Part shown: in pieces, positions 716 through 51,418 of the stretch
Position numbering within the stretch: position 1 is the stretch's first letter
How the letters are laid out: each line of letters starts with the position of its first letter
Assembly: GCA_017540905.1 (NCBI GenBank)
Contig: JAFYAC010000021.1
Span: 1 to 51,418 of the forward strand
Length of the DNA stretch: 51,418 nt
Origin: Kiritimatiellia bacterium
Lineage (GTDB): Bacteria > Verrucomicrobiota > Kiritimatiellia > CAIQIC01 > Lenti-01
Direction of reading: 5' to 3'
The notes under the pieces: model-generated
The model's input: the letters and a program-made list of their open reading frames with translations, nothing else
What the model was told of the DNA's origin: nothing
Database searches by the model: none
Position numbers and translations under genes: made by a program

Positions 716-1909
716 TTATCCGGCTGCGGGGCGGATGGCATGGGGCGCGGGGAGGCGCGGCACGATGGCGGAGAGATTCGGCGCGTATGAATCGTCGGGG
801 CGTTTTTCGAGGAGCCGGGCGCCGACCAGGTAGTCGAGGTCGCGGACGAGGGTCGCGGAGGAAAGGCGGGCGTAGAGGAAGGCGGCCTTGGGGGAGGTCT
901 GCAGGAGGGTGCGGGGCTTGAAGGCGGCAAAGGGATCGAGCGATTCCAGGAAGGCGCGGAGGCGGGCCACCGGCTTCGCCGCCAGCTTCGAGGCCGCCAG
1001 AGTGCTTGAGACGTGCGACTGCCAGCAATAGCGGATTTGCTGGCGCTGTGCGGCGCCCAGAGTCGCATCGAGGCCGTCGAGGAGGCCGGTGACGGCATAG
1101 GCGATGAAGCCCGACAGGTCGCCGGTGCGTCCGGCTTCCGCAAGGTGCCGGTAGTACTCCGGGCGGGTCGAGTTGTAGTGGTTGGAGAGGATGTGGGAGC
1201 AGATGTCCGGGAAGCCGCCCCGGAGCAGGATGAAGAACTCCAGCAGGCGGGCGGTGCGCCCGTTCCCGTCCCCGAAGGGATGGATCCAGACGAGATAGAC
1301 GTGGGCGACGATGGCTTCCACGACCGTCGCGCGGAAATCGCGGGGGGCGTCCGGGGCGAACGCAAAGAAGTCGCGGAGCCATGCGCACAGGCGGTCCATC
1401 ATCGCGGGCACGGCGCGGTGGTCCGGCGGGCGGTAGGCGCCGACGGTGACCTCGTGCGGGCGGAACTGGCCGGGGACGGCCTGGAATTCCGGGCCGAGGT
1501 CCTTGCCGATCTGTGCATGGAGGGCGCGGACCAGTTCGGACGTGACGGGAGGGGCCAGGCGGTTCCCGACCACGTCCTCCCGCACGGCGTTCAGGGCGTC
1601 GAGGACGTTCTTGACTTCCCGCTCCTGGTACTTGCGGCTGGGGGGGATGTCGGCATCGCCGCGCTGGATGGCCGCGACTTCTTCTTCCGAAAGGGTGTTG
1701 CCCTCGATGGCCGTGGTGGACATGGCCCCCTTGACCAGCGACACGCGGAGCATCTGCTCGCGGATTTCGGGCGAGAGGGGCAGATACATCAGCGAGCGGA
1801 CGATGGCCGCGCCCTGGCCGAGCATGAAGTGGACATCCGGCGTGAGTTCCCACCGCTGGCGGAAACAGATTTGCGGATGGGTTTGCAGCTCGTTCTGTAG
1901 AATGTCCAT
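716..1909 (-). CDS. Fic family protein AMP-transferase
   Basis: 397-residue Fic protein. The catalytic signature HPFGDGNGRTARLLE (about residues 212-226) is complete, with the catalytic His, the acidic metal ligand and the phosphate-binding GNGR. Family members transfer AMP from ATP to hydroxyl side chains of target proteins. Near residue 67 the sequence TTAIEGN fits the inhibitory-helix motif (S/T)xxxE(G/N), so this looks like a self-inhibited Fic with the inhibitory helix N-terminal to the Fic core. The C-terminal 100 residues look like a winged-helix region typical of the long cytosolic Fic/DOC subgroup. The start is ATG 1909 with AAAGGAAG about 9 nt upstream. It stands alone, with no antitoxin-like small gene beside it. 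The target is unknown. Confidence 0.9.
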   Translation of the reverse strand: MDILQNELQTHPQICFRQRWELTPDVHFMLGQGAAIVRSLMYLPLSPEIREQMLRVSLVKGAMSTTAIEGNTLSEEEVAAIQRGDADIPPSRKYQEREVKNVLDALNAVREDVVGNRLAPPVTSELVRALHAQIGKDLGPEFQAVPGQFRPHEVTVGAYRPPDHRAVPAMMDRLCAWLRDFFAFAPDAPRDFRATVVEAIVAHVYLVWIHPFGDGNGRTARLLEFFILLRGGFPDICSHILSNHYNSTRPEYYRHLAEAGRTGDLSGFIAYAVTGLLDGLDATLGAAQRQQIRYCWQSHVSSTLAASKLAAKPVARLRAFLESLDPFAAFKPRTLLQTSPKAAFLYARLSSATLVRDLDYLVGARLLEKRPDDSYAPNLSAIVPRLPAPHAIRPAAG

Positions 1910-50387: not shown

Positions 50388-50628
50388 GGGCGCATCTCCA
50401 GTTTGTGCCCCCTCCTCCCTTCCACCTCGACTTTTGGTGCCCCTTGATTGGATGGCAAGGCCCCTGGTGGGGCGAGCCGTCCCCGGCGAGCCGGTGTGGA
50501 AGGGGACAGGAGGTCTGGAAAACCGGCAAGAACGGCTCGGCGGGGACGCCTCGCCCCACCATGCGCCCCGCGCGGGATTATGCAAGCGTGGATTTGGTCC
50601 GCCCCGTGCACAAACCGGAGATGCGCCC
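50388..50628. repeat. 241-bp segment with 21-bp terminal inverted repeats
   Basis: GGGCGCATCTCCAGTTTGTGC at 50388-50408 is repeated in reverse complement at 50608-50628 with 20 of 21 matches. The segment has no coding sequence and encloses a second inverted repeat, giving a nested palindrome. MITE-like form, but no target-site duplication was identified. Confidence 0.55.
50465..50561. repeat. Inner 29-bp imperfect inverted repeat
   Basis: The arm at 50465-50493 begins TGGTGGGGCGAGCCGTCCCC, and its partner at 50533-50561 ends GGGGACGCCTCGCCCCACCA; they differ at about two positions and are 39 bp apart. As RNA this would form a stable hairpin on either strand. Confidence 0.65.
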
Positions 50629-50853
50629 GCCGGGATTTGCCTGATGAAAACCTTTCGATTTCTTGCCGGCCAGCCCCATCATGCCAATACAAGAGTTTCA
50701 CCCGCCCCCCCCACGCGGGAGGGATGCGCTTCCGCGCGTCCGCGCGAAAGGGGCGTTCCAAGCATGTCCCTGAAGCGCCCCGTGGAGTCGGCCCGGACGA
50801 ATCCCCCCTCCGCATGCAAAACCGCGCCCGGACTGCAACGTCCGGACGCGGGC

Positions 50854-50903
50854 AAAAAAAGGTCCGCCCCAGGCTTTCGGGGGGGGGGGACACCTGGGGC
50901 GGA
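50854..50903 (-). terminator. Rho-independent terminator of the candidate sRNA
   Basis: Perfect 11-bp stem (50893-50903 with 50863-50873), loop containing 11 C on the RNA, then two C and seven U (50860-50854). Confidence 0.85.
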
Positions 50904-51021
50904 GAGTACCGACGCGTGGCCTGGGGGGGGGGAAGGCCGCAATCGCGCCGGCTTGTTGCATGGTTAGCAACAAGATGTTCAAAATGGGTTTCGCAAAGAG
51001 CAATGCCGTTTCGTGTGAAAC
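50854..51021 (-). ncRNA. Candidate small RNA with C-rich hairpin loops
   Basis: About 168 nt, bounded by its own promoter and a textbook terminator, with no credible reading frame. Predicted elements from 5' to 3': a single-stranded AU-rich start; hairpin CUUGUUGC/GCAACAAG (50974-50967 with 50959-50952, loop UAACCAU); hairpin GGCCU/AGGCC with a C10 run in the loop (50938-50918); terminator hairpin with a C11 run in its loop. Poly-C loops can pair with Shine-Dalgarno G runs, so a trans-acting regulator of translation is a plausible role. Not matched to any RNA family I know. Confidence 0.6.
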
Positions 51022-51028
51022 AGTGCGC

Positions 51029-51056
51029 ACTATACACCTTCCCTCCTCCCTGTCAA
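51029..51056 (-). promoter_or_regulatory. Strong sigma70 promoter of the candidate sRNA
   Basis: Perfect TTGACA (51051-51056), 16-bp spacer, TATAGT (51029-51034) on the minus strand: the best promoter match in the window. The start is expected near 51021. Confidence 0.75.
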
Positions 51057-51365: not shown

Positions 51366-51418
51366 ATGCGCAAGAAAATCGTAGCCGGCAACTGGAAGAT
51401 GAACATGACCACCGAGGA
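51366..51418 (+). CDS. tpiA: Triosephosphate isomerase, 5' end only
   Basis: Seventeen codons are visible: MRKKIVAGNWKMNMTTE. The AGNWKMN motif holds the substrate-binding Asn and catalytic Lys of triosephosphate isomerase, so the call is firm despite the truncation. The enzyme interconverts dihydroxyacetone phosphate and glyceraldehyde 3-phosphate in glycolysis. AAAGGA precedes the ATG at 51366 by 6 nt. The gene continues to the right of the window. Confidence 0.93.
   Translation, partial: MRKKIVAGNWKMNMTTE

Follow-up and report, generated by a model that had tools for sequence, protein, structure and literature searches.

An apparently uncatalogued small RNA with C-run hairpin loops in one uncultured family of Kiritimatiellae-type bacteria

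Near one end of the DNA stretch examined here (the window; 51,418 nucleotides, one whole contig of the source genome G000, whose fragmented assembly comprises 178 contigs and is 84% complete) lies a small-RNA gene that is real, apparently uncatalogued, and found in almost every genome sampled from one uncultured bacterial family. The locus almost certainly has the anatomy of a stand-alone sRNA gene that is driven by a sigma-70 promoter and ended by an intrinsic terminator. The original prediction of such a gene is now strongly supported by a conserved promoter, three covarying hairpins, a terminator, and neighboring genes that vary between genera. By analogy with known C-loop sRNAs, the C runs of 6 to 11 nucleotides that are carried on strong hairpins probably grip G-rich stretches of mRNA.

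A TTGACA/TATAGT pair with a 16-bp spacer had been put forward as the best promoter in the window, and a promoter scan of the entire window (conducted in three overlapping pieces) agrees: the site at 51056-51029 on the minus strand matches 11 of 12 positions and ranks first among five sigma-70-like sites. As predicted, it faces away from a start at 51366 that we take to be that of tpiA from the MRKKIVAGNWKMN start we associate with this gene, of which only 17 codons lie inside the window. The proposed terminator is likewise present, as a perfect 11-bp stem (12 with a closing U-G pair) followed by CC and then U7; it is not listed by an automatic terminator scan whose loop limit is 8. The segment from 50978 to 50854 folds at -56.5 kcal/mol (z -6.4), a value equaled by none of 200 shuffled sequences, and the predicted fold places the C10 and C11 runs in the loops of hairpins 2 and 3, as had been claimed (Table 1). 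In most members from other genera, the counterpart of the 5' hairpin H0 is a GGGGA/UUCCC-type hairpin.

Table 1. Features of the predicted sRNA gene, in window coordinates
Feature	Positions	Strand	Basis or conservation
-35 element TTGACA	51051..51056	-	Promoter scan and 17-member comparison
-10 element TATAGT	51029..51034	-	Promoter scan and 17-member comparison
Predicted sRNA, ~169 nt	50854..51022	-	Start placed ~7 nt past the -10 element by inference
5' hairpin H0, GUUUC/GAAAC in the window	51008..51021	-	Predicted fold
Linker with conserved UCUUU ... AUUUUGAACA	50975..51007	-	Alignment
Hairpin H1, loop UAACCAU, no C run	50952..50974	-	Fold and covariation
Hairpin H2, two-part stem, C-run loop	50909..50951	-	Two-sided changes in 9 of 13 pairs (17 members)
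C10 run, H2 loop	50923..50932	-	C6 to C11 in 17 of 17 members
Hairpin H3, intrinsic terminator stem	50863..50903	-	100% of cells paired; two-sided changes in 5 of 12 pairs
C11 run, H3 terminator loop	50879..50889	-	C7 to C11 in 17 of 17 members
Terminator U7 tract	50854..50860	-	Read from the minus strand

Two repeat structures lie nearby. At 50822-50851 on the minus strand, the sRNA terminator is followed immediately by another strong inverted repeat, with 12 pairs and a TTTT. A MITE-like element at 50388-50628 has 21-nt outer inverted repeats (95%) that flank an inner 35-nt inverted repeat (89%). Its inner core motif has 10 matches in a 379-kb sample of G000 (two of them in the window copy) and none in six other genome samples, and its outer motif has six matches in the G000 sample and two in G001.

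A DNA-level search across the GTDB family recovered the RNA from 16 of 18 genomes, including the source genome, and a covariance model built from 16 sequences found it in 17 of the 18, with G003 as the exception. This search of relatives, which had been proposed as a check, therefore came out positive, with both stems and C loops kept. Outside the family, one of 11 genomes from the same order (G021) yielded a weak covariance-model match. We attribute this match, and a second weak match in G009, to chance, given that neither matched stretch has a C-run loop. Under stricter filters, which lose weak matches, model R1 matched 8 of 240 genomes across the phylum, seven of them family members, and model R2 matched 19 of 289 genomes across the class, consisting of 17 family members plus G331 and G268 (weak matches in two of 271 non-family genomes). 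The eighth R1 genome (G054) and G331 are again ascribed to chance because the matched stretches are without a C-run loop. In G268, which belongs to another family of the class, the match, a terminator hairpin that has C9UC5 in its loop, is retained as a lead; from the same family, G168 gave no match and the match in G264 looks like chance. The G268 loci lie at about 1500-1575 (-) in L110 and about 1479-1541 (+) in L114. There are two C8UC5 sites in this genome, and the other one likewise falls within the loop of a hairpin that is strong (z -5.0). The pattern CCAGG..C7..CTGGC, which misses the window's own RNA and that of G016, is matched in 38 of 346 genomes; among 31 such loci inspected, a T run follows the match in 15, namely 14 family members and G268.

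No Rfam 15 family reaches its gathering threshold anywhere in the window. We found no description of this RNA family in Rfam 15 or in the open-access literature on sRNAs of Kiritimatiellota/Verrucomicrobia, and no sRNA work on Kiritimatiellae/Kiritimatiellota in the open-access literature, a scope outside which most subscription journals fall.

The structure is supported by base-pair covariation. In an unfitted alignment of 16 sequences, two-sided changes occur in 11 of 32 pairs, the covariation score is 0.281 compared to 0.118 for shuffled data, and 98.0% of 512 cells are paired compared to at most 41.9% when the structure is slid. When 17 rows (G017 added) are fitted to the model, a procedure that leans toward structure, two-sided compensatory changes are seen in 17 of 32 pairs, 98.9% of 543 cells are paired, and the score is 0.330 (0.130 shuffled; at most 0.102 when slid). 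Covariation is strongest in H2. The flanking signals are also shared among members. A promoter-like hexamer pair precedes 16 of the 17, and in the remaining one (G010) the contig breaks off immediately upstream of TATAGT. The -35 hexamer is TTGACA in 14 members, TTGACT in G016, and TTGCAC in G017, at a distance of 16-17 nt from the -10-like hexamer. The terminator consists of T5 to T8 behind GGACC in 16 members of alignment A3 and of T6 behind CCC in the 17th.

The sequence comparisons support the C loops as the likely working part of the RNA. Both loops hold a C run in every member, with the window carrying the longest run in H3. Column conservation is no higher in the loops (0.88 and 0.91) than in the H1 and H3 stems (0.92 and 0.96). 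Rather, the case for their importance rests on the greater variability of the H2 stems (0.79) and on G016 and G017, in which the stems differ while the C runs stay. Run length alone is within chance for this GC-rich window: C10 is matched three times, and at least three matches occur in 45 of 100 dinucleotide shuffles. The 379-kb G000 sample contains only seven G or C runs of at least 10, two of which are the H2 and H3 loops. Chance is ruled out because the RNA is conserved in 17 of 18 family genomes and shows covariation.

In working principle, the closest known RNAs are sX13, alpha-r14/NfeR1, and RepG, and the features tested place the window RNA outside both sX13 and alpha-r14. One report describes sX13 of Xanthomonas as a 115-nt RNA with three stable stems and apical C-rich loops (4C, 4C, and 5C motifs) that is active without Hfq and represses via G-rich motifs near starts, an activity that needs both its C loops and the G-rich motifs of its targets (PMC3771888). 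Compared to sX13 as portrayed there, our RNA also has three stems and apical C-rich loops, but only two of its three loops are C-rich and these contain 6 to 11 C nucleotides; the H1 loop of members is UAACCAC-like, and sX13 membership was rejected. The best Rfam match of the locus, which is sub-threshold, is alpha-r14/NfeR1 of rhizobia (RF02344). Two reports characterize it as Hfq-independent and 123 nt long, with three hairpins that keep their loops but differ in their stems, and with CCUCCUCCC in all three loops (PMC10746234, PMC3927594). On that description, three hairpins with loops kept while stems vary are common to both RNAs, whereas two of the loops here are pure C runs. The match scores 22 bits compared to a gathering cutoff of 58.8, and CCUCCUCCC is absent from the loops UAACCAU, C10, and C11; membership was thus rejected here as well. 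Finally, RepG of Helicobacter pylori is described in a further report as pairing, through a C/U-rich loop of its terminator hairpin, with homopolymeric G in a target that carries a variable-length tract (PMC8295292). The present RNA similarly has a C-run loop on its terminator hairpin but, unlike RepG in that account, itself holds the homopolymer, whose length varies between species.

Given these parallels, we favor a mechanism like that of sX13, in which the C loops pair with GGGG-type sites of a restricted group of mRNAs. An RNA of about 170 nt would be transcribed from the sigma-70-type promoter and ended at the intrinsic terminator, and each of its two stable C-loop hairpins would expose an unbroken run of 6-11 C nucleotides in a single-stranded loop. 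One C loop would pair with a GGGG-type tract located at or close to the translation start in a few mRNAs, and this pairing would lower their translation or stability without Hfq, with the two loops perhaps providing redundancy. We infer transcription, mRNA pairing, and the direction of regulation, and we give the mechanism as a whole about an even chance of being correct. A search for Hfq that was positive in five of 14 control genomes found the protein in none of the 18 family genomes, eight of which have a completeness of 90% or more and contamination of 5% or less.

The main rival to mRNA pairing is protein binding, wherein the RNA would titrate or guide a protein that recognizes C-rich single strands, such as Rho, a KH-domain protein, or a cold-shock protein. 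Rho prefers poly-C, and 6S and CsrB-type RNAs serve as decoys for other proteins. This reading accommodates the retention of C runs as loops though the H2 stem varies, the lack of any start-region preference of the loops (see below), and the near-consensus promoters, which would suit an abundant decoy. However, each RNA offers only two short sites, and the published C-loop sRNAs sX13, alpha-r14/NfeR1, and RepG, to the extent covered by the accounts cited above, work by base-pairing. We therefore consider protein binding unlikely.

A variation on the preferred mRNA-pairing mechanism, which strikes us as quite unlikely, is that slippage-prone C runs on the regulator tune the regulation of G-tract mRNAs, a mirror image of RepG and its target tlpB that operates with no detectable Hfq. 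The length of the C run (6 to 11 between species) would change easily by replication slippage, and the strength and range of regulation would then be set by the sRNA rather than by its target. The same design might also recur elsewhere in the class, as the C9UC5 loops of G268 may indicate.

The original prediction assigned the C loops a general role in masking G-rich Shine-Dalgarno (SD) sequences, as for alpha-r14. The sub-threshold structural match to that RNA (22 bits, E 0.039) and the three hairpins with a terminator agree with this role, but the start regions of the lineage do not. Using home-made gene calls (hexamer score, no SD term) whose start positions carry errors, and a G000 sample of 379 kb out of 3.5 Mb (about 11% of the genome; 277 genes), GGAGG or AGGAG is found before 55 of 218 ATG genes compared to 18.3 in shuffled sequence. 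Four of 18 genomes contain the canonical 16S end TGGATCACCTCCTTT (the other 14 may simply have no assembled 16S). An AGGAG-like SD is a poor pairing partner for a pure C run. Moreover, GGGG at -22 to -3 is scarce, preceding 26 of 218 ATG genes in G000 (35.9 shuffled), 7 of 93 in G001 (13.5), 19 of 237 in G014 (35.5), and 3 of 44 in G012 (4.4). Two relatives without the RNA gave 20 of 209 compared to 32.6 (G027) and 4 of 37 compared to 3.4 (G024); because the scarcity is also seen in G027, it is not linked to the presence of the RNA. C runs of at least 4 in the same interval are commoner than in shuffled sequence in G000 (44 of 218 compared to 31.6) and rarer in G027 (10 of 209 compared to 15.6).

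The loops also show no preference for start regions. Among 272 G000 genes, mean pairing energies at start regions and in two sets of coding windows are -8.1 compared to -9.5 and -9.1 kcal/mol for the H2 loop and -10.0 compared to -12.1 and -11.5 kcal/mol for the H3 loop, and 280 G014 genes gave the same direction. This test has low power, as an anti-SD control loop reached -8.5 compared to -8.2 and -7.9 in G000 and, with almost no preference, -8.5 compared to -8.5 and -8.2 in G014. Based on the SD type, the scarcity of G runs, and the lack of start preference, together with the absence of CCUCCUCCC from the loops, general SD masking is very unlikely.

Conserved G runs were sought among orthologs. 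Across ten genome pairs, each with 1 to 27 orthologs, three ortholog pairs have runs of at least G6 in both leaders compared to about 0.9 expected, but for two of these ortholog pairs the run seems to lie inside a promoter spacer rather than in the mRNA. Similarly, both G8 runs found within -60 to +5 in the G000 sample fall between promoter-like -35 and -10 hexamers and hence would not be part of the mRNA; six more runs of G8-G9 are located at -78 to -146. Genes that by eye resemble RNase HIII in two genera (G001 contig C96, 105473-106504; G012 contig C51, 29461-30453) both have a G8 run between -35-like and -10-like hexamers, again judged by eye. Upstream of genes, runs of at least G6 fall inside promoter-like spacers in 8 of 37 cases in G000, 6 of 31 in G014, and 0 of 12 in G001, and such spacers cover only 1.5-2% of upstream sequence (G000 and G014 samples; window, L063-L096). 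A preference for homopolymer-rich spacers may characterize promoters of the lineage. Taken together, the pairing, ortholog G-run, and G-run avoidance tests revealed no target and nothing specific to RNA-bearing genomes. With GGGG before 26 of 218 ATG starts in G000 and 19 of 237 in G014, sX13-like regulation of some mRNAs may still take place.

Another very doubtful reading is that the RNA acts as a sponge for, or partners with, another RNA with a G-rich seed or loop, which the C loops would kiss. Pre-formed C loops suit kissing and mRNA start regions are not enriched for loop pairing, but nothing points to such a partner RNA.

The neighborhood of the gene agrees with its being independent. 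In five genomes with gene calls, the nearest neighbors are not the same. G000 and G001 differ in this respect despite belonging to one genus; G014 and G012 have one neighbor in common. Among open frames over 17 loci, several of which are cut by contig ends, one upstream neighbor is common to seven loci from three genera and no cluster occurs in more than 10, and synteny is thus partial. Lack of conservation of the stems in relatives with the tpiA neighborhood had been named as a refutation; the RNA is indeed conserved, but that neighborhood is too narrow a yardstick because the RNA is kept where neighbors differ. It is exceedingly improbable that the RNA instead serves the downstream gene as a leader or attenuator, or that it encodes a small protein. 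The next called downstream gene is co-directional in the window (called start 665 nt away) but convergent in four of the five genomes with gene calls, which rules out a leader there. As for coding, 7 of 16 members have a 23-codon frame (MGL...PR) across H2-H3, and in 14 of 17 the RNA strand holds one or more stop-free frames, which GC-rich RNA of this kind commonly contains. Against a coding role, the 23-codon frame is lacking in the window and in nine of the 16, C-run length changes shift the reading frame, no frame is shared over members, and base-pair covariation fits an RNA.

Judged from its sequence, the RNA founds a new RNA family of one GTDB family of Kiritimatiellae-type bacteria. The C-loop design of Xanthomonas, rhizobia, and Helicobacter appears here without detectable Rfam kinship and with longer pure C runs, which suggests that loop-based targeting of G-rich sites has been invented repeatedly. 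For a bacterial family in which Hfq was not detected, these findings provide a well-supported sRNA family and a testable hypothesis for what it may do.
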